From Tomocerus qinae (taxonomy: Eukaryota > Arthropoda > Collembola > Entomobryomorpha > Tomoceridae), in contig CM034546.1 of assembly GCA_020055645.1 (NCBI GenBank), positions 126,315,875 to 126,379,874 on the forward strand: DNA of 64,000 bases. The letters are read 5' to 3'. Below the pieces are notes generated by a model. It ran no database searches. It was given only the letters and a program-made list of their open reading frames with translations, and was not told where the DNA came from. The position numbers were made by a program, and so were the translations under genes. Below, piece after piece: positions 33,965 to 57,100 of the stretch; the first letter of the stretch is position 1, and the number at the start of each line of letters is the position of its first letter.

Positions 33965-35037
33965 CACAAATCACTTTAACTGTACTTATTTGTTTTCCTT
34001 AAGCTATATTATTATAATTTATAATTATTGACTTGGAATTGCAAATCTACACTCGGAGACCTTTTACATTTTACTTTAATTGTCCGTGTTGCCTTACTTC
34101 AATGAAAAGAAACCATTATTACCAAAATTAAAAACTTATTTTGCAACAAAACCAAAACGAGGTATTCACTTAAGGGTCTGGTATTCCTAAAAGTGAATAT
34201 GAAACTACTACTTTTACTAAGAATACGTGCTGTACAGTCAACAGTCATACTTTTCTCATAAATGGCCATTTAATTCACACACAATTGCGCAATCCATGAA
34301 ATGTTTACTTTTTGTTGAAAATAGTCAATAATAGCCTACTTACACTTTACAAATAATCGTGCGGAGCGTGAACAATTTTGTTATTTTCACTCAAAAGTTA
34401 CTCTTTTCCGTTTGGTCACATTAGATTTGATTATTACACAATTTATTTCCAAAAAACGGGACGCGTTTCTGAAAACGGGACGCCGGGACTGGTCACCAAA
34501 ATCTTCGGAACGCCGGAAAATTTTCCTTCTGCAAGTTAAAAAAATCCTTTCATGGTTATTCATACGAGAAAACTTTTTCTATTTACCTGCATAAAAACTC
34601 AGAAATTACCATGCATTTCTGTAGAATGCATAAAGTAATTAAAGATTTTAATAAGCCAGAATGACTGTTTATTTCAACTATTTTATTTATTGTTTGCTGT
34701 TTGTTTCTGTGATTTATATACCTACATGAATAGCATGAATACATCTGTGCTGAAGTATAAAGAGAGTGTTCCTTGTCATATTATTGTCATTTATTTACTG
34801 TAAATTGCATCGTAAAATTAATGACCCTAAATGAAGAACACTTGACAACTAAAATATAATTACTTGGTAATCTTTTGCTTTTAAGTGTAAAACCACAGTA
34901 AGGCTTTTGAACTGCTAGTAGTTGTGTCAGACCCAAATGTATGGACGAACTTCAAAATTTGGGCATCTTTTTGGAAATAAATCTTTATTCTTTGTTTAAA
35001 CCTTTAAAAAGTTTATTAAAATTAGAAACTAATAAAA
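33965..35037. other. Intergenic region upstream of the CUB gene
   Basis: No gene was seen. The frame at 34412-34594 covers a GC-richer patch (GGGACGCCGGGACTGG) that looks like repeat sequence. Confidence 0.4.
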
Positions 35038-37665
35038 ATGCGAAGTAATTTCATACCTTCAGTGTTGCTAGCTTCTAGCATTGTTGGATATACCATTGGT
35101 AAAACTTGGAAGAGGGAAGTTGAACAGTCCAGTAAGAAAAATATGCTTTATTCAAATTACTAAATCCGTTAAATAAATAAACCTCAGTTGAAATTATTTT
35201 CTAATCCTTATAGGAGAAAAAGAATTGGCAGAAATCCAAAATGGGCAGTGTGGTGGTACAATCGAATTGGATTCGGGGACTCTGATCTATCCTGGAGAAG
35301 GTGGACCCAATCCGGACGAGTTATGCATCTGGACTTTACATCTTAGAACATTAGATGGGTTTAGAATGAATTTTACAAAGTTGGAATTGTCTGGAGGCAA
35401 TGCCGATTGTGTGGATTCCGCTGTTAGCATCTACGGACTCACAAATCTCATTCCCACTGACAATCTGGAAAAATACAGGTAGATTTATCTGTATTAGGTA
35501 GTAAAATATTTAACTTGATTTGTTCAAAGGTCAAGGGAACCAATAAATTATTTCATTGATCTACGATTGTAGAAAACAGGCCATAATTTCCTTTTACGAT
35601 TAAATGCACCTGTTTTTTGTAAATGTAAACAACAAGTGTGCAAGAAGGAATAATTACAGCTATGGAATATAATAAATGCTTATGGTTGGTGTGGTTGTAA
35701 TAATTGGCAAGGTCTAATGTTTTAATTGTAATGCGATGTAAAAAATATTTTTACATCGTATCGTTAATAAATCATAAACGTAAATCTGAAATTATTGTCA
35801 CCAAAAATAGATGTAAAAGTGAAAACAATCAGGAGAATTTAAGAATTTCGAATTTTTTGAACTATTACAGATTTTGTAATGAAAATGATAATGGCGGGTA
35901 TCACTTCTTGACTGGAAATATTGCCACAGTTATTTTCTATACGAGTTCCAATTTTCCAGTCAATAGTTCCTCATCTGGATTTTCTCTTCATTGGGAAGGG
36001 TCCCGATTTGAGCCAGTGGCCACTTTGCACAGCTCCACTTACACAAGTTCACCTTCTGGTGTCATTTGGTATCCTGTGGAGGGAGAATACCCGGGAAATG
36101 CTGCAATGACATGGCTAGTCAGTGGAGGAGGACAAAATAACGCATCGTCATTAGTTGTTGAAATTTTGAATGTCGATTTCGAAAGCTGTACTTTTTCTGA
36201 CAAATGTTTGTGTGAAGCTCTGATCATTTATCACATTTCCCAAATTGGAGATCTTCACGAAGTAGACAGGTAACTTATCAGACTTGTTGTTTATCCTTAG
36301 TTGCAATTCTCTTAGTTCAAAACACAAAAGATATTTATGTTATTACTATTTAATGATTGAACTTTTGAAAATGGTTTAGATTCTGCGGAGAAAGAAAAAT
36401 TGCAGAATTAGTAAATATCAGCAGTGATTTTATCGTTGCTTTTTACTCAGACAGCAACGATATTCCAGGAGAAGGAATAGGATTTCAAATGAACTGGCGA
36501 CAACAGAATATAACATCATCAACACCAGCATCAGAGATAACAACCACAGAACTGGAGTCAACAACTATTACCGAAACTCCAAAAACAAATGTTTCCTCTC
36601 CAAGACCAATTAGTACCAAGTTGATTTACTTATTGTAAATTCAGATTTATTCTAATTTTAATTACGATTTTTAATACCTTTGTATTTAGTACGAACATGC
36701 GGTGGCATAATTGAAGGAGAGTCGGGGACAATTGAATATGCAATGGATGAACCTTACGCTATTTATGAACGTTGTCTATGGACAATTCGAACTTGGCCAC
36801 CAAGCAGGGAAATTGAATTAACTAAACTCACCAGCGGCTTCGAAAATGATTTTGACTACCTAGTTGCTTTTAGTTTTGTGGCGGGGCAAGGATTAGATGA
36901 GACAATATTGCTGTAATTTTTTAAATTGTACTTAAAATTATTCGCAAAAGTATTACCTATTATTGCAAATTTTGGGAGTTAAATTCAGTTTGTCAATTTA
37001 CCGAATTCATTTAAAATTCAAGATAACCTCTCAGAATTTTTACTTTGAACCTTTATTTTTAAATTCGCGGTTTTATTTACAGAGGAAGGACAACCGAAGA
37101 AGAGCAAGTGGTAATGAAGGGGTCAGTTGTAGTCCTACAGTTTACATCTGACAGTGAAGTTAATGGAATGGGATTCCGTCTCCATTTTAGAGCTGTGGGA
37201 GGAGAGGAGCCACTAATTCACAATGCTTACGATTTTAACACGGGATCTCCTTCAGGACTAATTGATTTTCCTCCCGGCAGCAATACATATTATGAAAACT
37301 ATCATCTGTCGACATTTGTCATTACCCCACATTATAAATGGGGTTGGCATAACGTAGTTCTCAATCTCGAGTTTTACTCCTTGGAAAATTCTCCTGGGTG
37401 TAATTACGATGGACTGTTAATTTACAGCGTTCAAAGAAACGCCCTTCAACCACTGGCTAGGTAAACTTCCAAAATTCAGTTCAAAAATGCATTCGTTTTG
37501 AAAACTTTTATTTTTATACAATTTGAAACTTTCAGGATTTGTGGGACGTACACAGAGCCACCTTCTTACACAGCTTCAGCCTTTGTTCTACTATTTTATA
37601 GCGATAGTACTGAATCTGGCAGAGGATTTAATATTTCCTGGACAGAAGTACCTCTTCTTCGCTAA
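35038..37665 (+). CDS. Secreted protein with four CUB domains, 7 exons
   Basis: The exons are 35038-35131, 35214-35478, 35871-36269, 36380-36612, 36690-36912, 37083-37460 and 37536-37665. Phases close to 573 residues. An N-terminal hydrophobic stretch (MRSNFIPSVLLASSIVGYTI) serves as signal peptide. CUB1 starts CGGTIELDSGTL and ends near SLHWEG. CUB2 runs through FCGERKIAELV to GFQMNW. A Thr/Ser-rich linker follows, then CUB3 (CGGIIEGESGTIEY to GFRLHF) and CUB4 (to GFNISW). Each domain ends in the typical GF-x-(L/I)-x-(W/F) strand. CUB domains are extracellular binding modules, often calcium dependent. There is no protease or membrane segment, so this is a binding or matrix protein. The donor of exon 4 (A|GTACCA) is weak. 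The gene lies tail to tail with the lectin gene, 200 bases away. Confidence 0.85.
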
Positions 37666-37689
37666 CATTCACATTTTTAATAGTTAAGT

Positions 37690-37866: not shown

Positions 37867-40800
37867 TTATTTCACAGAGTTTTTCCCACAAGGTACATAA
37901 AATCTATCATTAGGATCTAAAGCTGATAGTTCAGGATCACAGTTTTCTTGTTCTTGAGTAGGGTCAGCTTCATCTGGAGCAAATTCAGCTTGAATCTCAT
38001 ATGTTGTCATGTAGGAAGGCTTTACTTTCGGCGGTTTCTTATCATCTGTTTGTTCAGTTTCTTCTGGGTTGGGTGATGTTGGTTTCGGTAGGGTAGGTTT
38101 TTGCGGAGTTGGAGTGGGATTTTCAAAAGTATAGAAAACGTAATAAGTGGGCAAGGCATTGTCTTTAGAAGGGGACAGAGTTCCACGAACAGGAGTTTTA
38201 AACCATCCAGGTTGTAAACGATCTGGTCTGAAAATTCCTGGCATTTCAAATTCAATCACAGTATCGTAATTATCCGGTTTAAATACTGGACGATTTCCTA
38301 CTTGTGGTTTGGTAAGTGTTCCGGGTATTACATTATTTGGTTGGTTATCAGGTACAAATATTCCAGCAGTATTAAAATCAGGCACAAAAAATATTTGTTT
38401 CCCAGAAGAATCGTCAGGTGGAAAGATAACGAAATGGGTATAATACATTGGGTCATCGGGAATATATGTCTCCACAGGTTTCCAGGTTCCACTAGTTGGT
38501 TGTGTAACAGAGTTCGAAGGACCATCTGGTAAGAATTTGGTAGGATTGCTCTGAGTGGCTTGACCATTAAGGGGTTTTGAGTTTGGATCATCAGGTGTAA
38601 AAATTCCTCTAATTTTTTCGAATGGGACAAAAATGTAGTAAGTTCCGCCGAAAGGATCAGGAGTTGGTGTCATTGTCCCAGCAACTATTTTATGGGGGAA
38701 ATTTCCAGATGTACCAACTACGGGTCGCCACACTCCAGGGATAGGTTCAGTAATATCATATGGATCGTCTGGTGTGAAGATAGTAGGATTTCCTTGATTT
38801 ATATTTCCGGGAACAGGTGTTCCCCCTTGTGGAATAAAATCTCCCTCAACAGTTAAATCCGGATAGAAATGTCCGCTCCCAGGATCAATTGGGCTCGGCT
38901 TCATTTGAAAGTACACATTTATTTAAAAAATAAAGGTTTAAAAGTAATTTTGCAATAAAAAAGAAAGAACTAACTTTTAATGTGCCCCTCAAGGTTGAGA
39001 ATGGATAAAATGGAGAGCCGGCACTTGGATGCCATGTACCTGTATCATTAAAATTTTGATGATTGCTAGATTATCAATCATCGTCAACAAAATAATAAAA
39101 ATGCTACGAACCAAGGCTGGGTAAAATTTCCGTCACTGCTGTCGATGGAGTGAACAATTTTGGATTATTGTCCATATTCATAGTTCCATCAATGAAGTTG
39201 GGGCTTGAATCCGGAATGAATTGTCCGTCAACTAAGACATCCTGGATGAATACCGGACCATCAACTCCTAGAATTAGTTATAAAATGTATTTAAATTATT
39301 TTTGAAAAATTATTGTCAAAAATAAATGGTTAAAAAATTTTCACAAGTTTAAACCTTTGTAAGAAGATTAGCTGAATGAAAGCGATTAACATAATTAACA
39401 AAAAACTACCTTGATCCATAACTCCGTGCATTGTTCCTGAGAATGGGTCATTAGGATCTGTGGTATTGTCAGGTGCCCAAATCCCTGGAGGTGCATCACT
39501 CAAATCTATAGCTGGATTTTCCGGAGTAAATTTATACGGTGGATCTTTAGTTATAGCGCCATCAATCGGAGTTTTTGGAACATCGTCTCTGTAAAAATTT
39601 CCTGGTATGAAGTTGGGGTCCCCTTTGGGTTTCGGTACGGGACCAGGTTCAAATTTTGCATAATTAATAGGAAGATTTGCATCTGGTTTTAATGTTCCTT
39701 GTTGAGTAGGGCCTTTGTTGTCTGGAATAAATTTACCAGGATTTGGTTTACTTAAATCTTTTTCATCATTTGGAGTAAATACTTGCGGAGGATTCTTTGT
39801 CATATGTCCATCCATCGGATTAGTTGGATCATCGTCTGGAACGAATTTACCAGGTATAACCTCATCGGGTACAAAATCGAGACCATTTGGTGTAGGTTTC
39901 ATAGTACCGTGCGATTCTGATAATTTACTAAACATCGGCTTTGGTTTCCAAGTTCCTAGATAAATAATAACACATTGGTATCTATTACCATTTTTGTAAT
40001 GTATCAATAATTATGAAGAGTCATTTATCGCTCATAATCAGACAAAAAAGCAATTGCTGTTCCAAAATATTAAAAACTTGAACTTACCACTTGTAGGCTT
40101 TGGAAATTTAGCATTTATTGAATCAGGAGTGAAGCGTGGAGGGACACTTTGAGTAAGTGTTCCTCGAACAGGTTTCTTTGGATTGTTATCAGGTCTGTAT
40201 AAAATATTCGCAATTTATGCTTCAGCACATCATACATATTTCAATTTACTTCAGCGGTACTTGTATTATATAGTTTATCGGACACAAGGAACAAAAAAGG
40301 TTTTCCTTTTTTACAAGAAAGTAAAAAAAGTACTACTTTTTCAAAAAAGCAGTATTTTTAACCTGGTTTACCTTTTCCGCCTTAATGTAAATTGGAAGTA
40401 AATGGGGTACGCTGCTACATCAAAAAAGGTAAAAACGCAAAAAAGACTGCTTTTTAAAATTATTCATACCTTTTTTATAAAAAAGGTAAAAGGCAAAAAA
40501 TATCCTTTTTGGTTCCCTGATCGGACATGACAGGATGGGAAACGGACTTACGTGAACGTCCCATGGCGACTTGGATCTGGCGTAAATACAAAATTTGAAG
40601 TATCGTTAGGGTCCGGCGTTATCTTACCATAAAGAGTGTTACACGGATGATTTGGAACAACACCTACAAGAAACATAATTATTACTAATTTAATGATTGC
40701 ACTGACCTAGGGTTAAATCGTTTGTGATATAAAATAAAAATTAGGCACATTGATTTTTACCAAAAAATAAATGCCATTCCCCTGTAGTAGGTTTGGCAAT

Positions 40801-42780
40801 GTTAGGCGGGAAGTCCGGGGTGAAAATAGATGGAGGGTCCTGTGTCATGGTCCCTGGTATAGGTTGAGCTCCTTTGTCAGGAATAAATTCGCCAACGACT
40901 GCAGCATCCGGTAAAAAGCTGGAAGTGTCTTTAATTGCTGGATAGGGTCGAATTGTTCCATGGTAAACATACTGAAAGGGAAATTCTGGATTATCACATT
41001 TGTCTGGTTTGAACGTGCCTGAAATTGGTCGAGTCACTGGCTGACCAGGCGTGAACAATGGAGTTTCATCTGGTTTTTTCATGGAACCAGGAATTGGCTT
41101 CAACTTATCTGAATCGGGAATGAAATGTCCTGGAATAGGCTGTTCTGGATAAGATGGTTGTTTACTTCCACCTTGAGAAGGTTTCGTCGGTTCTGGTACT
41201 CCCGGTTTCGGCTTGGGGATTGTTGGTGATTGCGGTTTAGTTCCACCAGGTTGTTTGGGGTCAGGTACTCCCGGTTTCGGTCGTGGTCGCGGTTTGGTCA
41301 CCCCTGGCGGGGGTTCGGCACCTTCTGGTTCCGGTGTTTCTACGAATCCCGGTTTCGGTCGGGTGACTGTTGGAGGTCGCGGTTTGGTTACCCCTGGAGG
41401 AGGTTCAGTACCTTCTGGCTCTGGTGTTTCTACAAAACTCGGTTTCGGTCTAGGGACTTTCGGAGGTTGAGGTTTGACATTATTAGGTGGGGGTGATTTC
41501 TCACCTTCCGGTTCCTGAGCTTCATCTGGTTCGAACAAAGAAGATTCTGGAGGGACATTTGGATTCGGTCTTAAGACTCCGCGATTTCCTTCCGGATTTC
41601 CAGAAACTGGTTTCCACAAACCTGGGATAGGGTCGCTAAAGTCTGTAGGATCAAATGGAGTGAATATTTGAGGTCTGTTTTTGGTCATGGAACCTTGAAT
41701 TGGTGCATCAGGATTGTTGTCAGGAACAAAAATTCCAGTTTCTTCTTCCTCTGGAACAAATATACTAGTTCCAGATGGTCCAGGGCGGAAAGCTCCGTAT
41801 GAAACTGATGTTGGGTCGGCCGGCTTCGGTTTCCAAATTCCAGTTATCGGTTTTTTCAATTTACTGTTTGGTAGAGTAGGGATAAATTCCGGTGGATTCT
41901 TTTGGATTAGAGTTCCATAGATCGGATTCTTTTCACCATCTGGGGTAAACGAACCGGGCGTGCTTGGATCCGGGACAAAATGGGAATCTGTTTTGGAAGC
42001 TCCTGGCCAAACTGTACCATGTATCGTTTTACATGGGTGATTAGGCAAAACACCGCTGATTGGCTTCCAGACACCTAGATTATATAAATTTTTTTGCAAA
42101 TACTGATTTTTTAAAAAATTTCACATGTTTTGTGCACACCCTGTATGTTAATGTTATAATTTGGAAATTATTTATAGAGCAGTCATGCATTGTTCGGTGA
42201 CCTTTGTTAGCCAGTGGCTAAAATGGCCAAATATAGTGAAATGGGACTATGCTAACTAAGAAAATCGTTCATGATTTGGCGGGAAATTTAAAAAATAACA
42301 TAATTTTCAATCAATCCAGAAAATTTTTCCAGCCACTTACCTGGAGTTGGTTTGGTAATATACGGGGGAGCATCTGGAGTGAAGAATCCTTCAGGAGTCA
42401 TCGATCCTGGGGTTGGCACTCCGCTATCGGGTTTGAATTCTCCAGGAGTTTGTGTATCTGGAACGAATTCAGAAGCTCCCTTTTTCTGTGGATATGGCCG
42501 CATGTTTCCATGAATTGCTCCAAATGGAAATTCTTGTAGTTCCGGAGTTTCCACTGGTATAAAAGTTCCCGGTGTCATCCTCTTTATTGCTTCTGAAGGA
42601 TTATCAGGAATGAACAATTGCGGTTTTCCTGGTTGCATAGTTCCCTTGATTGGCTTCTTTGATCTCATATCTGGATAAAACGTGCCTATTAATGGAGCTT
42701 GTAGTTCCTTTTCTTTCTCCTCTGCATCAGGATCAAATATCGTCACTGGTTTCTTTGGTTTATCATTACGTTGGGGGCTG
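37867..42780 (-). repeat. Coding repeat region built of GxFxPD / GTMT / GTWKP modules
   Basis: Across about eight exons (42780-42342, 42074-40761, 40667-40548, 40197-40089, 39958-39413, 39266-39114, 39045-38973, 38899-37867) the same modules recur. The order is GxWxP, about 15 residues, GT(M/L)xP, then FxPD, PGxFxPD, P(I/M)xGxMT, PPxxFTPD and back to PGxWxP. One round takes about 75-85 residues and about ten rounds are present. Short hydrophobic positions every 8-10 residues suggest repeated beta strands. The exon at 42074-40761 also carries a tandem of KPRPPTVTRPKPG-type proline-rich copies. Confidence 0.85.
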
Positions 42781-45700
42781 AATGTTAAAAATAATTTCTA
42801 AAATTTATTTCGACAAAAATCCAAGAAAATGCTTTTTGTCTTTAAATAAAACTTAAATTTTTTTTACAATTTTTTAAATATTTTTGTATTTTTGAGAAAT
42901 GATTTACATTGGTCGAACACAGATGTAATATTTGCTCTCCGTGCAATCAGAAGCCGACCAGATGGGAGGAGACTTTCCTGGGAATTGCATTGAAACACAA
43001 AGATCATTGCCCACACCGCTATCGTCATATGGTTCTCCAGGCATCCACCATTTCTTTATTCCGTTCGCATGACCATCCCTGAAATTGGGGAATTCCTTTT
43101 TCGTTGGATCCCACATCATTTTTGTATATTCGATAGAAGTGAATTTTCCACCGCTCCAAAAATCAGTCGATGCGCTTAAAGCTGTCATAAATGTAAAATC
43201 GCAAATTAAAATTAATTCAGTGATGTAAATATCTACCGATATCTCAAAAGATTAAAATTTGTATTAATTTACGTTTCTGTTTTAATTTCTTGTTAAAATT
43301 TAATATTTTATTATCATCTTCCGAATCAATTGTTAATAGAACCAAACCGCTGGCTTGACATTTCTTTTTCGCTTCCTCCCACGGTAGCTAATTTAACAAA
43401 TAAAATCAACAGATCAAGTAAAATTTCTTTATGATAAACTTAAAGACTAAAATTCCCAAACAGAATCAAAGCAAATAAATTTGTTTGGTCACCATTGATT
43501 TGCTTGAAGCCACGTCGTCTTCTTTTATTGGTTTGACAGGTCCTTCAGGTTCATCCGGTATTTCGTTTCCTTCCTCCAAGGGTTTCGGTGGTGGAGCATT
43601 GGGCTTAGTGATACGGTCCTTCCTAATTTAATTCATGAGGTAATTTTTCGATATTTATGATAATGATAGTATTTTAAGATATTCTTACAAGGGTCTCATG
43701 CAAATAAAATGTTTTCTTTCGTCACAATCTGCCGCAGACCAAATTGGAAGTCCTCGATTGGTAAATTTAATGTCCACACTAAATTTAGTACACGATAAAG
43801 TTGAGACTGATCAACAAATAATGTAAATTGGTACATTGTATGGTATAGAATATTAAAAATAGTACCAGACTTCCTTCCCACTTCCAGAGTCATCTGAGGG
43901 TTCTCCTTTTGCCCATTGTTTTCTTACTCCATTGGCAGTATTAGAACGGAAATTTGGGAATTCTTTTTTCGAAGGCTCCCACAACAATTTTGTATACTCA
44001 GTGGACGTGAATCTTCCTCCACTCCAAAATGGCGTTGACGCGGTCAAGGCTGTTATTTATCAAAAATTAATAAAAGAAAAAAATTTGGATTAAAGAGAAT
44101 AAATGGCTAGAAACCTTACACCCTTTTTTGAGACGTTCCGCTGATTCCAAAATTTGATTGTCTTCTTGCGTTTCAATAGCCACAAGTACCATATTGGATT
44201 TTTGACACACTGCTTGGGCAAGTTTCCATGGTTGCTAAATACACAAAACGTATTTAGATCGATTTAGTTCGATTTAGTCCAATTTAGTTCGATTTAGATC
44301 AATTTAGTTCGATTTAGTCCAATTTAGTTCGATTTAGTTCGATTTAGTTCGATTCAGTCCAATTTAGTTCAATTTAGTTCAATTTAGTCCAACTTAGTTA
44401 GGCAGATGGTTAAATACTTTTTATAATATTATTTCTTCATAAAAATTATCTGAAAAGTCTAACTTTTGCTTTGCTGGGAGTCCAATCATTCGGATTTAAT
44501 TGAGGGACCTCCTCAGTCTCTTCATTATCAACTATTTGTGCAGGTGCAGGTTTCTTTCCTGGCAGTCGGTCTCTCCTAAAACCAATACAGCCATTAAAAT
44601 TGATTAATTATCAAAACTTTGGGGGGGGGGGCTTGAAAGAAGTAGTTAATGTCTAAATAAATATAAATAAATAAAAATACATAAATTAATAGTAAGCATA
44701 AAATGGATTTTGTTGATGTTTACTTACGCTGGTCTCATGCAAATGTAATATTTCCTCTCAGAGCACTCGGCCACACGCCAAACGGAGGTGGAAGACTGAC
44801 CTTTTGGAAAACTTATGTCGACGCAAACTTTCTCAGTTTCAGTACCAATAGTCATATCGTCCCATTGATGACTAACCCCATTGGAGTTTTTCCCAAACGG
44901 ATCCTTGAATTCCTTATGCATAGGTTCCCAGTACATCGGATGGCTTTGCTTAGCGTCATCATATTCTGAAAACTTTCCTGAACTCCAAAATCTCGTTTTT
45001 TCATCAAAGGCTAATCCAAAATCAAAAAATTTTAAACACTGCTAATTAAAAACTCAAAGTAAATAAATTAGTCACATAATGCAAAATAACTAAAATGGGT
45101 TGTAATACTAAAAATTGCAATAGCATTCAAATCTTGAAATCTTTTATAATAATCTCTTCTTATAACAAAAAGGAATTTAATTCTAAAAAGTAAGGAAATA
45201 TTTATTTACGCTTGGATTTAAGCCGTTTTGAATTGGCTAAAAACAAATTGTCTTCTTCATTTTCAATCATCATCAAAACCAAGTTGGATTTTTGACATTT
45301 CTTTATAGCTTCATTCCAACTGGCCTTAACATCATATAAAAATAATAATTGTATAACAATTCGTAAAGATGGAAGAGTATGATGAATTAATTAATGTACA
45401 TTTACCTTTCCTAAGCTAAAATCAACAGCAGCTGGTTCCAAAGGCTGTACACCTAAAATATAATTACATTTTAATAATACTGAGTGTTGCTTCCAGTGTA
45501 CAAAATACCATTTACCACTTACCAGTGGTAAGTGGTTTTTAATGGTATTTAACGTTAAATACCACTACCTAAAAAGTAGTGGTAAGTGGTATAAATGGTA
45601 AAAAATAGTTTCATTTAAATTTCGTGTTTAAATTTTGAACAAAATTCGGGGGCAAAGTACGAAATAGCTTAGCAGATGATCATTGTTGTCACAAATTGAT

Positions 45701-48700
45701 AAGTGTTCATCAATCAGCGTAGGATTCAACCAATGAGGGCGCTAACAACCCTTGCCGATTGAGAAATTAATTGCAATTAAATTAGCATCAATTTTAAATG
45801 GACGATACCAAATACAATCTTTCTTTCTTCATTTTTTTATAACTTTTGGTGTACAATCAAATAAATATGATTAATTTAATTGATATTGGAAATATTTCAT
45901 AGAAAACAGTTCTAAAACTTATATTTTAGGAAGTCTAGTGTATCTGTACTCAGCTGTCTAATCAATCGCTAAAATTTACCATTTTTACCATTAAATGCAT
46001 TTTTACCATTAAGTGCATTTTTACCACTGTGATGGTAAAAAAGGCTAAAAAGTGGTAAATTTTGTACACTGGTTGCTTCAGAGATCTTTAAGCATTTACA
46101 TTATGCTAGAAAAATGGCATACCTCCAGGTTTTACAGGTTCATTAGAGTTCCCATCGTCGATAGTTGCCTGCTCATCTGTTTTCGTTCTCTCTGCTCTAT
46201 TTTAAAATGCTACGGTTATTTTCATAATTTATTAAATTATCTATGTTTATAGGATTAAGATATTTTTCATTTAATCAGTATACAATTTATATTATAAGTT
46301 TACTTTTTAAGAATGGTCACTCTATATTCTGGTGATTATTATAGTATAATAGAACAATTTACATAAATATGCTACTAGATACTTACGCAGGTCGTATGCA
46401 AATGTAGTATTTCCTTTTGGAGCAATCTGAGGCTGCCCATACGGGAGGAGATACACCTGGGAATCTCATATCCACACAGAGATCTTTCCCTTCTCCCCCA
46501 TCGTCCAGAGGTTCTGCCGTCTCCCAGACTTTGTTGATTCCATTGGCATCGTCCTCCATAAAATTCGGAAACGTCTTTTTAGTGGGATCCCATTTCAATA
46601 ATGTATAATCCGTTGAAGCAAATCGGCCTCCACTCCAGAAGAATTCATTCTTGGAATACGCTATGAGACGAAGACATTTTCAGTTTCATTTTTACTGCTT
46701 CACAATAAAATACTTAGTGAAATAATTGTATGAAAATAAATAAATTTACGTGGCTGTTTGAATTTTTTGTTATTATTCAAAAAGTCATTATCTTCTTGTG
46801 TCTCGAGTACCAGTAACATCAAACCGGCAGCCTCGCAGCGAGTTTTGGCTTCCCTCCAGGGTAACTAGTAAAACAAAAAAGTGATAATTAGAATTTATTT
46901 ACTAAAATGTTAAGGACAGTAGAAATTAAAATTCATAAGTGTAAAAATCTACATTATTATAATATTTAAAAATCCCAACTTGTAAGAATTTTATTTCTAA
47001 ATCTTAATTAAGATTTGGAATTATTATTTATCTTTTTCTCTACCTTTCCTTTGCTCATTGCTAGATCAGAATTTCTTATGTCGGATTCAGTCGTAGGTTT
47101 TGGTTTTGGATAGGTTCTGTTGGTACACAATTAAACCCTCAATATTGTAGTTAATAATAGTTAATATTATCTACTGTCCAATTATTTTGGATTAAATGAA
47201 AATTAGAAAATTAAATTACGGTTTTGGTTTAGGCACTTCAGCATCTAAAATGTTAACAATCTAAATCAGATTCTTTTAAGTAAAGGAAGTAAATTGTTTT
47301 AAAAAATAGTTCATTTACCTGGTAGACCTTTACACGGCGGTTTGCCAGACAAAGCTGCTTCCCACTGCCATTTAACATACCATTTACCAGTAAATGTGCA
47401 ACCATCTATAATTAGTCCATTTTACATCAATATTACAATTAATGGCAAGATGTTTAAAAATAAAATTATAATTTATTCTTACAATCCACTGGCATATCTT
47501 TAGGATCACCTGAAAATAATGAAAAAGTGAAGCAGTTAGTAATCATTGCATTTGTATGAGCCAGTGTTGATTGATTTGCGTAGAGTTTTTACCTTTTAAA
47601 AGAATTAATTTTAGAATATAATTTTTAGCCCGTTTTATTTTTCTGCTACAATTATATTAATTAATTAATTTTAAATACTTTCTTACTTTCTTCGCAATAA
47701 ATAACATCCGTTCGATCTTCAGTGCATGGATGGTCTTTAACAAACAAAGGTCCTGCATCCCCTGAACCCCCTTTCGCATCCCCGTATTCCATTAGCTTGC
47801 ACATCCCTTTTGTAACTTCGGAAGGATTTGGTTCCCAGAAAAAGTTCGGTAAGCTGTTACTGATGAATCTCCCTTTTAGATTCCTCCATTGTTTCCCAAA
47901 GCCTTGAATATCAGACCAAGCCTTCGTTTTTCGACTAATCGATCCCAATAATTTTTTGTAACTGTCAAGATCCTTTTTTTGCTCGGGACTAGCTAGATGA
48001 AGACCTTGAGACATACAGCAACTTGCAGCTTCGAACCAATTAAACTAAAAAACAATTATAATACATTTGTATTACCCTGGCGTACTTATTAATTGTTCCA
48101 GCGACAAAAATGTATTTAAAACATTTTCAACCACATCCAATAGTATTGAATTTTAGTTGAACCTTAGAATACATGACATGTCCCAATTTGGACTTTTCTT
48201 TATTTGATTTCCCCTGGCTCAAAAAAGATTAGCCATATAACCTCTTGGGTTTTTTATTTGTCACAAATGCATTTCTCTGCGTTTATTTTTAAATAAACGT
48301 TATTGGGTGCATATTTAAAATATGAAAAAATTATGAAATATGAAAATAGTATATCTAAATCCTACCCTAATACATGACTAGTCCCAGCTGGGACTAAGTC
48401 AAGTAGTAACGTGACATGCACAGTCAGCAAGTAGGGATCAATAAAATAGTCTGTATCTCTAAATGGACACGCCTATTAGTCATTAGTTAGGATAGTCATG
48501 TATTCTAGGGTTAAACGGAATTTCAATAAATGCCACATATACATAACGGTGACGTATATTCTAATAAAAAAGTCGCAAAATGTTTAGCAACTTACCAAAA
48601 CAGGCCCGGATGAGTATTTGAGTTTAACCGAAGATCCAGTGGATTTGGATATAATATCCTCATTCCAGATGATATCACTACATGTCTCCTCTGTAATAAA

Positions 48701-48908
48701 ATAAGGTACAAATTAATAATTTGGGTTTTAATAATCAGAAATGTGTTCACATTGGCATTTATATTAAAATGCAGATTTGCTAAATGCTAAACCTAATTTT
48801 TCAGTTACCTGCTTCTGACGCAATTGCTGCTCCTGAGCTGAGCTTAATACTATAATAAATGAAAAAATATAGAACTGGCAATACTAATAATGGGACTTGG
48901 TGGTCCAT
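37867..48908 (-). CDS. Giant secreted mosaic: five C-type-lectin-like domains plus proline-rich FxPD repeats, about 28 exons
   Basis: The start is ATG at 48908-48906, giving a signal peptide (MDHQVPLLVLPVLYFF). First exons are 48908-48809, 48690-48596, 48044-47687 and 47509-47483, in phase. Lectin-like domains lie at 48044-47687, then 46865-46380, 45330-44727, 44235-43689 and 43388-42905. The last four share one pattern: (L/Q)PW..A...C first, then FWSGG(R/K)F, GEP.DDSG..LCV and a terminal YYIC(V/I/M)RP. The EPN/QPD and WND sugar-binding triplets are altered (EPYDD, WSASD), so carbohydrate binding is uncertain. Short Pro/Lys/Glu-rich exons separate them. From 42780 to 37867 the protein is a Pro/Gly repeat region (separate entry). 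Exon joins in the repeat part are consistently G|GT, phase 1 (for example 42074, 40667, 39958). The last exon ends CGKNSVK. An adhesive, mucus-like or immune surface protein is possible; function is unknown. Confidence 0.8.
40285..40519. mobile_element. hAT-like MITE, copy 4, in an intron of the lectin-repeat gene
   Basis: A perfect 8-bp duplication ATCGGACA flanks it (40277-40284 and 40520-40527). The ends are CAAGGAACAAAAAAGG and, inverted, CAGGGAACCAAAAAGG. It is 235 bp long and shares the core GGAAGTAAATGGGGTACGC with the laccase-intron copies. Confidence 0.92.
44240..44398. repeat. 10-bp repeat GATTTAGTTC in a lectin gene intron
   Basis: About 15 units of (G/A)ATTTAGT(T/C)C run in tandem. 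A run of 11 G lies separately at about 44622. Confidence 0.9.
45494..46071. mobile_element. hAT-type MITE, 578 bp, in a lectin gene intron
   Basis: It is flanked by a perfect 8-bp duplication GTTGCTTC (45486-45493 and 46072-46079). The ends are CAGTGTACAAAATACCA and, inverted, CAGTGTACAAAATTTACC. Subterminal regions consist of repeated ACCATT/ACCACTT blocks and their complements. It has no coding frame. Confidence 0.92.
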
Positions 48909-51290: not shown

Positions 51291-51567
51291 TGATGCCTGA
51301 CATACATACATTTGGAATTATTCAATGCGCATGTGTCAGTTCACGTTTATACTATAGTCATGATGATGGAATGAACATTTTCCAAAAGCTTTCAACTAAA
51401 TATTATTACAAGTAAATATTTACATTCATGAATCATCGTTTCCGCAGTCCGCACCTCCAATATCTTCTTGTCAAAAATCATGAACAATCAACAATATTCC
51501 AATTTGGTTATATAATTCAAGTCAGAGCTGTGCATTGCAATGTCTTTTGAACCTCGATAACAATTCA

Positions 51568-53455
51568 GACAGAAATTATTTGAAATAGGAAAATTAAAAA
51601 AAGTAGGTCTTCAGTGGACATTTTTAGTTCTGTTTTTCTGTGCACTTTTTTATTGTTAACTGACATCTTTGGTGAAAAAAATTCATTTTTCAGTATTTCA
51701 GGGCCTATGTGAAATAACACCAAAAAATCGGAATATGAAATAGCTCCGAAACTACCGGTCTGATTTGGATGAAACTTGGAACAGAAGTCAACAATCGCGG
51801 TATCTCGGGGTGTTTTTTGAATTTGTGAAAAATTCGAATTTCTTCCCTTTCAAAATTACGAAAAAAATTTCGAAATAGGCAGTTTTTCATATACGGAATT
51901 GTTTCATCAAAATTCTGCCCGATTAAAAATAAAGCCCTAATAAAGTTATGGTTTATAGAGGAAAAAAATATTTCAAAATTGTTGACCTCTACAAGATGTC
52001 AGAGGTCAAATTTTATTTTTCGTCAAAATATGCTTATGTAAGGTGTCGTTTGCCAGCTAAAGTTATAGTAAAGACTAAATAAGTTACTATTTTGGCAACC
52101 TAGGGCTCCATACAGAGGTCAAAGGTCATAACTATAAAAATGGAAATGTCTGATGCACAAGCTATACTGCGGTAGTGCATCTGGCATTTTAGTACTTACT
52201 AGCCATATAACCCATTTTTAACATAGGCTTGTGTCTGCTTCAGTGCCTACATAATACATGGCAAAGTTTATTTTGCCTTCCTGCCAATTAAACACTTATG
52301 ACATCTAATGCAATCTAATGTAATTGACGTATTACATCGTAATGATATGTCTATTGCTAATAGAAAGGTGAGGATAAGAACATTTAGTACATCGAAGTGA
52401 AGAAGATGAGATGAATAATTGTCAAATATCATAATAAAAATCATAGAACTTTCTCTTAATACTTACCCACAATGCGACTTGTGAATGCGAATAGTACTTT
52501 TGTCACTAGCACTTTAACACTTTGTTTTCCAAAAGGAACTTTTTGGGCTTTAAAACATTTCAAGTTTCACTTATTAGAGCCGCAGCGAGAGAAATATTTC
52601 AGGAGGGGCACCGAGACATTTTTTTAGCGATTTGGGCACGGGCCCCGGTGCTCCCCCCCCCCCTCGCTGCGGCCCTGCCCTGATTCATAAATTATGTTGA
52701 CAGAGAAGCCAACTAATATGGATATGGACTAACAAATTAGCAGGAAGGCAAAATAAACTTTGCCATGTATTATGTAGGCACTGAAGCAGACACAAGCCTA
52801 TGTTAAAAATGGGTTATATGGCTAGTAAGTACTAAAATGCCAGATGCACTACCGCCGTATAGCTTGTGCATCAGACATTTCCATTTTTATAGTTATGACC
52901 TTTGACCTCTGTATGGAGCCTAGGTTGCCAAAATAGTTACTTATTTAGTCTTTACTATAACTTTAGCTGACAAACGACACCTTACATAAGCATATTTTGA
53001 CGAAAAATAAAATTTGACGTCTGACATCTTGTAGAGGTCAACAATTTTGAAATATTATTTTCCTCTATAAACCATAACTTTATTAGGGCTTTATTTTTAA
53101 TCGGGCAGAATTTTAATGAAACAATTCCTTATATGAAAAACTGCCTATTTCGAAATTTTTTTAGTAATTTTGAAAGGGAAGAAATTCGAATTTTTCACAA
53201 ATTCAAAAAACACCCCGAGATACCGCGATTGTTGACTTCTGTTCCAAGTTTCATCCAAATCAGACCGGTAGTTTCGGAGCTATTTCATATTCCGATTTTT
53301 TGGTGTTATTTCACATAGGCCCTGAAATACTGAAAAATGAATTTTTTTCACCAAAGATGTCAGTTAACAATAAAAAAGTGCACAGAAAAACAGAACTAAA
53401 AATGTCCACTGAAGACCTACTTTTTTTAATTTTCCTATTTCAAATAATTTCTGTC
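51568..53455. mobile_element. Foldback-type element, 1888 bp, with 720-bp inverted arms
   Basis: The left arm (51568-52290) and right arm (52733-53455) are reverse complements with only a few differences. They enclose a spacer of about 440 bp holding a C-rich, GC-rich patch. TTCA occurs on both sides (51564-51567 and 53456-53459), a likely 4-bp target duplication. Two nearly identical 61-codon frames, one in each arm, are consequences of the inverted repeat. No transposase was seen. Confidence 0.9.
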
Positions 53456-53459
53456 TTCA

Positions 53460-54141: not shown

Positions 54142-57100
54142 CTTAGCAGTCGTCACCAGGAAGTTGTCAGCGACGCGATAAATTCTTGGGATTCCTCATT
54201 AAATCAGCGATCTCTTTTGGTCACAGTAAGTGGAACAAAACCTGACAAAGTTGACCTATGCTGGTATTTTGCTAACTATGGACTGGTGGCTGACGCATTT
54301 TTTGAAGCCGACTTGGAGTTCTGCGTTATTCAGTTGGATAAGAAGTAATAATTTTTTACCTGCCAATCAGAAATGTATTGTGTCAAATAAATTCTCTTGA
54401 TAAGTTTTAATGACACTTTGACATTGATTTGACTGATTGTATTATTTGTAGAGACTATGCCCAAACAGCTGTATCTGGTAAACACAACATGGAAGGGGTC
54501 AACCTTTCTGTTCGCCTGAGAGAAGACGTTTCAGATAATGAATGTGAGTAATGTAAGAATTTGATTGACTTACAGGTAAACTAACCAATATTTGATATTT
54601 TTTCGTAATCTGCAATTAATTATTATTTTATAGGGCTTCTACTAAATTCTATGGTCCGACGAAATGCTACAAAAGATATGGTTCAGAGAAAATCGGAATC
54701 TTTTGAAGAGAGACACTTGAAACTTGCGGATACTTTGAAATCCTTTCCGCTTGACTATCAAATTGAGCGTTTCGAACGAGAAATTAAAATGAACTCTGTT
54801 GAAATGAACATACGAGAAAAATTAGTGCAGGATATGAACAAACTCTTTGGTAGAATGATTAAGTTCCCGAACTGCGTTCTGTGTCCTTTCGGATCTCTTG
54901 TAACTGGCCTCGGAAATAACTCATCTGTTCTGAATATATATTTTGATGCAATCGGTAAAAAGTTAAAAAAAATATTTTACATATTAAAATAATTTAGATT
55001 ATTTAATTTTGGAATATTAGATTTTTCATTTAACTCGTCAATTTTCTATGTAGGTGAATGCGTTGGGAAAAAAAGGGATAAAGATGATAATGCAAATCCT
55101 TATTGGAGACAAACACTAGAAGTAGTTCAACAATATATTCATAGTTGCAATCGGAAAGATAATTTGTTTTGCTATGATTTGATCTCTCTTCCTCGTGACC
55201 CAATTCCATGTGTAAAATTTATTCACTACGTTACTGGAGTTAAATGCAGATTTACTTTTGACAGTTTACTTCCTGTACGCACATCGAAGCTGATAGCATT
55301 AGTGATAAAACTAGATCCAAGACTGCCTGCTTTATTTCAGTTTGTCAAGTATTGGGGAGAGTACCATAAATTGACTGGTCCGCAGAAACTGACGACATAT
55401 TCGCTGTATCTTCTTCTGGTGGTTTATCTAACGTTGCAAAAGATAATTCCTTCTGTGTCCGTTCTCCAGTCGATGAGTACAAGCAGCGAAAAAGTCAGCG
55501 AGTGGGAAACTACATTTAGCGACGATATTGAGAAAATAACCACTTTGATGTCATTTTTTGGAACAAAGGGCAATTGCGATAAGAATGATACAACGGGAAA
55601 GCCAACGGCTCGCTCAGTTCTTCAGTTGGTAGTGGATTTTTGCAAACTTTACGCCCATTCAGATTTACAGTCTCTGGTCATTTGTCCTTGCATTGGAGAA
55701 TTATTACCAAAAATTGCCTTTGAACCTGGAAAAGAAGATATGCTCCCTAAAGGACTAGAAGCGTATAAATTGTGGGCCTCTGGGAAAAAGCACAGACTGA
55801 ATACGAAAACTTTGCTATGCATTCAAGACCCGTTTTATTTGAAGCGGAATATCTCTTCGGAAACTCCAGAAGACATCGTATGGAAATTTCAGTTCGTTTG
55901 TGCAGACACAGTAGACAATATTGAAGCAGTTCTAAATTCTCCTAGTCCGAATCTGATGGAAATTTTCAATCCTAAGAATTCTAAGAAGGAAGTTTCAAGT
56001 GAAACCCCAGGAAGTAGTAACGAGGTTGTGAATCCCGTTGGTGATAGATTAATCACTGCCAATAGTACTACAAGTTTGGATTCAATTTCTGATGATTCTC
56101 CAATATTAGGTGCACCTCACCACGTTCAAGATGATTTGATCCATGTGAAACCTAATCCAGTAGGTTTATGTCCTATTAATGTTAATTTGCCTCCACCTAA
56201 TTGGAATCCAGGATATTCCATGCCTCCAGCAGTAGCTCCTTTCCCTCAATTTAATCGCCAACCTACCAATGATGCCTTCCAACAGCCTCAATATTTAAAT
56301 CAGTATGCAAATTCTTGCACTGTCGTCGAACGTATTTCATCTCCTGAGTTATTCCCACAAGAATTCCCATCTGCACACGTGGAACCTCCAGATAGAAAAC
56401 CCAGTCATAGAACTTTAGTTCATGTTTCGTCTTCAAGGACGTCTAAATCTATTTCCTCTCCGAAAGAAAAACCAGTCCTGGAATTCTCCAAGTATGAGCA
56501 AATATTTACATACGCTCCTACGAATGAATTCGTTCGGATGTTCAAGAAATACTTTGGAAATCTTGTCTTAGAGTCTGCAATGAAAATCCGTCTCAAAGTT
56601 CTGTGGTGTTTGTTCCTGGAAGAATTCTTTGAAGAAGTATATACCAAGGCATTTCCATTCAAGGTCGAAGATGTCGACCCAGACTGTGTAGTTCTAAACA
56701 CGCTCAAACCAACCAGGGAAGAAGATGGAACTACCAGCACTTCTCTCATTCATACACTGGACAAACCTCCCGATCCTAAAAAGCGAAAAAGAGAGGAGGA
56801 GGAGAGATATAAATATCCACCGCAATCAAATCCCTTTAAACCCAAGTTTTTTGAGCTCCAGATCAATTTTACATATTCCAAGGCATTTATCTGTAGGGTT
56901 AATACCAACTGTCTGATTAATAGAGCAAAAATACGGAGCAGAGCAAAAGAAGATTCCCATCTCGTCAGACAATTTCCAAATCCTATGGAGTGGGAAGGTA
57001 AAATTAATTTTATTACTTCTTAATTATTTAATTTTATTACTTTTAAATAAATCTTATTTAATTTTTAATCTTTAATTTTAATTTAATTTTTAATCTTTAA

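Follow-up and report, generated by a model that had tools for sequence, protein, structure and literature searches.

The minus-strand gene described here raises the question of what kind of protein results when a long run of FxPD- and GTW-like motifs follows a series of lectin-like domains, and of how such a repeat could have grown. The gene lies in a stretch of 64,000 nucleotides from Tomocerus qinae, which is called the window below. The first-pass annotation had joined the repeat exons to five lectin-like domains and had read the product as a large secreted protein, and both points were supported. From the ATG at 48908 to the stop at 37867, the gene comprises 28 exons encoding 2153 amino acids in a frame that is open throughout (Table 1). 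Positions 37867-42780 are its 3′ part, and the repeat exons (42777..37867, minus strand) chain with the lectin exons into this single frame. Exon ends were picked by hand at GT and AG and chained without a stop; a full gene model was built for the window gene only. The most hydrophobic 19-residue stretch of the protein lies at residue 5, and no strongly hydrophobic 19-mer was found past residue 60 (maximum 0.79, Kyte-Doolittle). As the N-terminus is signal-like and no hydrophobic segment follows it, the product is probably secreted. The C-terminal repeat half, put at about 900 residues in the first-pass annotation, is actually 1256 residues long and consists of 13 units, each about 77 residues in length, together with an insert rich in Pro and a tail.

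Table 1. Exons and domains of the window gene (positions in the window).
Feature	Position	Strand	Basis
Exon 1: ATG and signal-like peptide	48809..48908	-	hydrophobicity, donor, open frame
Exons 2-3: lectin-like domain 1 (exon 3 = residues 66-184)	47687..48690	-	Lectin_C 21.7 bits, below 22.6 cut-off, E 3.5e-4
Exons 4-7 (residues 185-255): short segment containing Cys, and Pro/Lys linker	47044..47509	-	exon chain
Exons 8-9: lectin-like domain 2	46387..46864	-	Lectin_C 34.2 bits
Exons 10-11: linker	46196..45406	-	exon chain
Exons 12-13: lectin-like domain 3	44728..45324	-	Lectin_C 31.5 bits
Exon 14: linker	44575..44464	-	exon chain
Exons 15-17: lectin-like domain 4	43689..44234	-	Lectin_C 39.2 bits
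Exon 18: linker	43622..43493	-	exon chain
Exons 19-20: lectin-like domain 5	42908..43387	-	Lectin_C 37.8 bits
Exon 21: lead-in, unit 1 (residues 927-1007), part of unit 2	42341..42777	-	exon chain, unit profile
Exon 22: remainder of unit 2, units 3-4, Pro-rich insert, unit 5, part of unit 6	40761..42074	-	exon chain, unit profile
Pro-rich insert separating units 4 and 5 (residues 1229-1356)	41137..41520	-	unit profile; holds 90-bp tandem repeat at 41285-41476
Exons 23-27: remainder of unit 6 to part of unit 10	38975..40663	-	exon chain, unit profile
Exon 23	40663-40552	-	exon chain
Exon 24	40194-40088	-	exon chain
Exon 25	39955-39410	-	exon chain
Exon 26	39267-39112	-	exon chain
Exon 27	39039-38975	-	exon chain
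Exon 28: last part of unit 10, units 11-13 (ending at residue 2070), C-terminal tail, stop	37867..38898	-	exon chain, unit profile

The likeness of the N-terminal half to the C-type-lectin-like domain (PF00059, Lectin_C) lies in its profile scores. A score above the curated Pfam cut-off of 22.6 bits was taken as the criterion for membership; domains 2-5, each scanned singly, scored above it and domain 1 just below it (Table 1), and the five domains jointly reached 126 bits. C-type lectins that bind sugars in a Ca2+-dependent manner carry EPN or QPD and WND motifs, the latter usually in the form WND-x-x-C. The difference from such domains lies at these sites. The WND motif was absent from all four of domains 2-5 and from 10/10 aligned paralogue exons; at its usual place domains 2, 4, and 5 have W-x-A-x-D-C and domain 3 has W-R-V-A-E-C, and near the EPN site domains 2-5 show EPxDD or a gap. 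Since WND is absent, classical calcium-dependent sugar binding by domains 2-5 is doubtful, judging from their residues. Domain 1 keeps EPN and aligns poorly at its WND place.

The repeat half lies outside any Pfam model. Its periodicity was evident from two counts: the motif [FWY]-x-P-D was counted 34 times, whereas 2000 shuffled sequences of equal composition had 1.6 on average and never more than 7, and successive G-x-W motifs are 73-82 residues apart in 6/8 distances, the other two (157 and 280) spanning places where F replaces W in a unit or the Pro-rich insert. The unit is about 77 residues long, against 75-85 in the first-pass annotation, whose count of about ten rounds was too low. Searches with the repeat half gave no match in Pfam at E ≤ 10 (pieces of 340 and 799 aa) or in NCBIfam (pieces of 331 and 799 aa), and 11 paralogue segments and the Pro-rich insert gave none in Pfam at E ≤ 1. 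Among PDB sequences there was no convincing match, the best being E 0.098 to an intradiol dioxygenase (4ilt) over one stretch of the repeat half; the unit profile gave no match and the paralogue profile gave E 1.3. In a set of 5.8 billion proteins no match came up among 4106 candidates for the repeat half (E ≤ 0.01), 7092 for an 11-row paralogue alignment (E ≤ 1), or 6527 for lectin domains 2-5 (E ≤ 0.001); as even the lectin domains were without a match, this set says little about arthropods and absence from it was not taken as novelty. Among the papers listed in searches for springtail lectins, repeats, and cuticle and for motif strings, nothing was recognisable as the window repeat, and the accessible portion of PMC5490193 contained no word beginning with 'lectin'. 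The earlier statement that no named domain has this pattern thus held in the libraries, and the profile match that would have contradicted it did not appear. By these searches, the repeat is a putative domain absent from the domain libraries examined, adjoining lectin-like domains in a multigene family.

This family was found in the springtail's own genome. A search with 331 residues of the repeat half produced 54 matches, which visual grouping reduced to about 27 places, one of them the window (about 26 besides), a lower bound for the family. Many of these places are clustered at C1:128.7-131.2 Mb and 33.4-33.8 Mb. Eighteen of the 26 other places were fetched for a closer look, and lectin exons were sought there with a profile of window domains 2-5. 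They were found on the strand of the repeat in 15/18 loci and on the opposite strand in none; L038, L041, and L045 gave no lectin match (3/18), which counts against a protein built from lectin head and rod. Frames resembling lectin-like domain 1 were present in at least 13/18 loci (phmmer, E below 1e-7). In the window and in L029, L031, L032, and L033 the lectin exons come before the repeat, and in 11 loci they come after it. At L040, according to the splice-site reading, the repeat exon starts in phase 2, ends in phase 0, and terminates in DISKAK before a phase-0 lectin exon. Linker exons 14 and 18 of the window gene match this repeat exon in their phases, exon 14 ends in PSKAK, and an SKxK ending was seen in 9/13 short paralogue frames. 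These shared exon phases and SKxK-type endings make it probable that the repeat lies, or expanded, inside a linker exon. Near-identical copies of repeat genes were also observed in opposite orientation at C1 128.7-128.9 Mb (+) and 130.9-131.2 Mb (-), with pS of 0.021 for L037/L042 and 0.060 for L038/L041; such pairs could come from a large inverted duplication or from the assembly itself.

The paralogues were also used to place the unit boundaries. When cut W-first, 11 units could be aligned with invariant G, F, and P columns, and the array then starts in mid-unit. When cut GxFxPD-first, window residues 927-2070 are tiled by 13 units interrupted by the Pro-rich insert, a tiling that follows by construction because the profile was built from the window; the real test is therefore the paralogue frames. 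The scan covered 15 frames from 15/18 fetched loci (L033/L034, L045, and L047 were left out), several of them near-copies of one another. With the GxFxPD-first profile, the first unit begins at position 1-3 in 14/15 frames (position 17 in L036); with the W-first profile, it begins at position 25-43 in 12/15. The last unit was matched to position 74 or more in just 9/15 frames, which counts against folded units. Each of the 12 short frames contains 4 unit matches, some of them partial, and L032, L031, and L029 contain 9, 12, and 13, respectively; L036 gave three with the W-first profile. In the favoured register the unit reads GxFxPD / GTMT / FTPD / GxWxP / GTMxP / FVPD, that is, six motifs in two similar halves. 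The consensus of 68 units, assembled after near-copy frames of L036-L039, L043, L044, and L048 had been dropped, is i.G.FiPDs.p..pI.G.ltq..P..FtP..P..i..pt.GtWkP.....P..Pf..ihGtlkP....p.sa.F.PD. Comparison of columns 1-36 (68 rows) with columns 38-78 (60 rows, half-gap rows removed) using hhalign gave a probability of 86% and a score of 21.9; 200 column shuffles of half 2 scored at most 13.5 (0/200 as high), and reversed half 2 scored 9.9. The aligned region is 24 columns long and takes in motifs one and two of each half; correspondence of the third motif (F-x-P) was read from the consensus by eye. The two halves are thus similar beyond the shuffled controls, in agreement with the earlier suggestion that a small motif had been multiplied, and the doubling of a half-unit of about 38 residues probably came before the multiplication of the whole unit.

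Exon shuffling had been favoured on the grounds that all joins were of phase 1 after Gly. This is true of five of the seven joins within the repeat; join 23/24 is of phase 2 and join 27/28 of phase 0. None of the seven falls on a unit boundary in the favoured register, the nearest being 23/24, about 5 residues off. Sequence of the closest paralogue, at C1:127.17 Mb, aligns through some of the places where the window has joins and breaks elsewhere with in-frame stops, which are probably introns at other places. In L032, L029, and L031, 9-13 units follow one another uninterrupted, and introns in the repeat look as though they were gained or lost. Exon shuffling as the main route of repeat growth was rejected because the 15 paralogue frames hold their 4, 9, 12, or 13 unit matches unbroken, and exon-wise growth was likewise set aside given the apparently different introns of the closest paralogue and the window joins lying off the unit boundaries. 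A more shuffle-ready piece is the linker exon (phases 2-0, exons 14 and 18) together with two lectin-domain exons (0-1 and 1-2; domains 2, 3, and 5).

The repeat and lectin halves are under similar purifying selection. Against the closest paralogue, dN/dS was about 0.19 for repeat block 928-1230 (dN 0.223, dS 1.19, 290 codons), about 0.22 for repeat block 1357-2070 (dN 0.275, dS 1.23, 596 codons), and 0.20 for the lectin half (dN 0.283, dS 1.43, 725 codons). Many of the 24 pairs of paralogous repeat frames compared are related, and in three of them dS approaches or exceeds 1.9; across the 24 pairs dN/dS ranged from 0.11 to 0.47. The residues best kept between L029 and L031 were W, C, P, G, and F (0.75-0.88 versus 0.62 overall). 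Because of this selection and of these best-kept residues, the repeat appears to be a functional part of the protein and not drifting filler.

The best supported reading, to which we assign a probability of about 0.5, is a secreted multidomain protein of extracellular recognition or matrix, with a lectin-like head and a folded beta-rod. The five N-terminal domains would attach the protein to a surface or partner, and the 13 units of the C-terminal half would each fold into a small six-strand beta domain of two related halves, together making an extended rod that spaces the head or links it into a matrix. Small six-strand beta barrels (the PilZ domain, halves of trypsin-like proteases) may offer a structural parallel. 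The folded state of the units is suggested by the moderate-confidence structural model, and we infer that they form a rod and that the protein serves in adhesion or in a matrix. The main rival, which we judge somewhat unlikely, is an intrinsically disordered or polyproline-like repeat half, an elastic or hydrogel-forming tail like those of sea urchin spicule matrix proteins, in which F and W are stickers and the rest are spacers. The composition would suit such a tail (18-20% Pro and 8% Gly in the repeat half, 18% Pro in the window units), and the Pro-rich insert and the C-terminal tail were clearly on the disordered side in charge-hydropathy. The repeat and lectin halves alike scored at the order/disorder border, so that this score does not discriminate, whereas paralogue frames L032, L040, and L046, with 11-13% Pro, scored on the order side. 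The single-sequence AlphaFold2 model of exon 25 had no strands (pLDDT 52), but strands appeared when an alignment was supplied: 10 overlapping aligned window rows gave an all-beta model of moderate confidence at most (pTM 0.52, best pLDDT 65.6, above 54 in just two of five models). Foldseek searches gave no match at E ≤ 0.001. A disordered tail is also at odds with the equal constraint on the two halves, the similarity of the half-units, and the agreement of first-unit boundaries among paralogues.

Published proteins with a lectin domain and a repeat half lend the disordered tail further support. According to the accessible portion of PMC6771980, the sea urchin spicule matrix proteins SM50 and SM30 have one lectin-like domain and a disordered MAQPG region; the likeness, a lectin-like domain with a repetitive Pro/Gly-containing half, is one of layout only, and the window protein differs in its five lectin-like domains and in its regular, possibly folded units of about 77 residues, in which aromatic residues are conserved. 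In the accessible portion of PMC4912638, the Atrina pectinata foot protein apfp-1, a proposed interfacial linker, likewise combines Pro-containing degenerate tandem repeats with a C-type lectin domain, but its repeats are of 4-8 residues and DOPA-bearing, while the window units are of about 77 residues and Tyr makes up 2%. Another possibility, which we consider unlikely, is a soluble defence lectin whose lectin domains recognise microbes in gut or haemolymph, with the rod multimerising or spacing them and gene duplication providing diversity. The many clustered places and the several lectin domains in each gene would fit this, yet canonical sugar-site residues are missing from domains 2-5 and dN/dS of the repeat exons is below 0.5 in 24/24 pairs, a value still compatible with selection for change at single sites. 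That a lectin gene and a neighbouring repeat gene were wrongly joined is very improbable. Hand-picked exon ends leave room for such an error, but splice sites and phases chain free of stops, the paralogue at C1:127.17 Mb has lectin and repeat in the same order as the window, and 15/18 loci pair the two on one strand; even at L040, the one short paralogue read at base level, where the order is reversed, a phase-0 repeat donor faces a phase-0 lectin acceptor.

For the origin of the beta-rod, we tentatively propose, at somewhat below even odds, an undescribed pseudo-twofold six-strand beta domain that would have arisen in this arthropod lineage inside an inter-lectin linker exon by duplication of a half-unit of about 38 residues, then expanded inside single exons into tandem arrays of 4-13 copies and, accompanied by the lectin domains, spread over about 27 loci. 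A lectin domain with a repeat tail is a known extracellular design; the repeat here stands out by its absence from the domain libraries searched, its two-half pattern, and its multiplication within one genome. If the unit folds, it adds a repeat domain whose likely growth path, from half-unit to unit, array, and gene family, can still be read. If it is disordered, it represents an arthropod structural protein family with regular aromatic spacing, useful for biomaterials work.

Several other features were observed in the window and beyond it. The intron between exons 14 and 15 contains a 10/20-bp tandem repeat of the ATTTAGTTCG type (window 44252-44399). A convergent neighbour gene at 35020-37670 (+) has a CUB-like look; one exon scored 20.9 against the Pfam CUB cut-off of 21.4, and a second exon had no match. 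A 676-aa open frame at 54993-57020 (+) matched PAP_assoc (Cid1 poly(A) polymerase) with 25 bits against a cut-off of 22.6. The large palindrome at 51567-53456, whose arms (51567-52104/52919-53456 and 52104-52289/52735-52920) are 99% complementary, resembles a foldback mobile element. Elsewhere in the genome, 6/12 matches to NRPS condensation domains lie in five open frames of 1602-2456 aa, at C1:108415927-108418740 and at places within C1:39.0-60.1 Mb. These frames would fit horizontally acquired NRPS genes; horizontally acquired beta-lactam genes are reported for Folsomia candida in the accessible part of PMC5200902.
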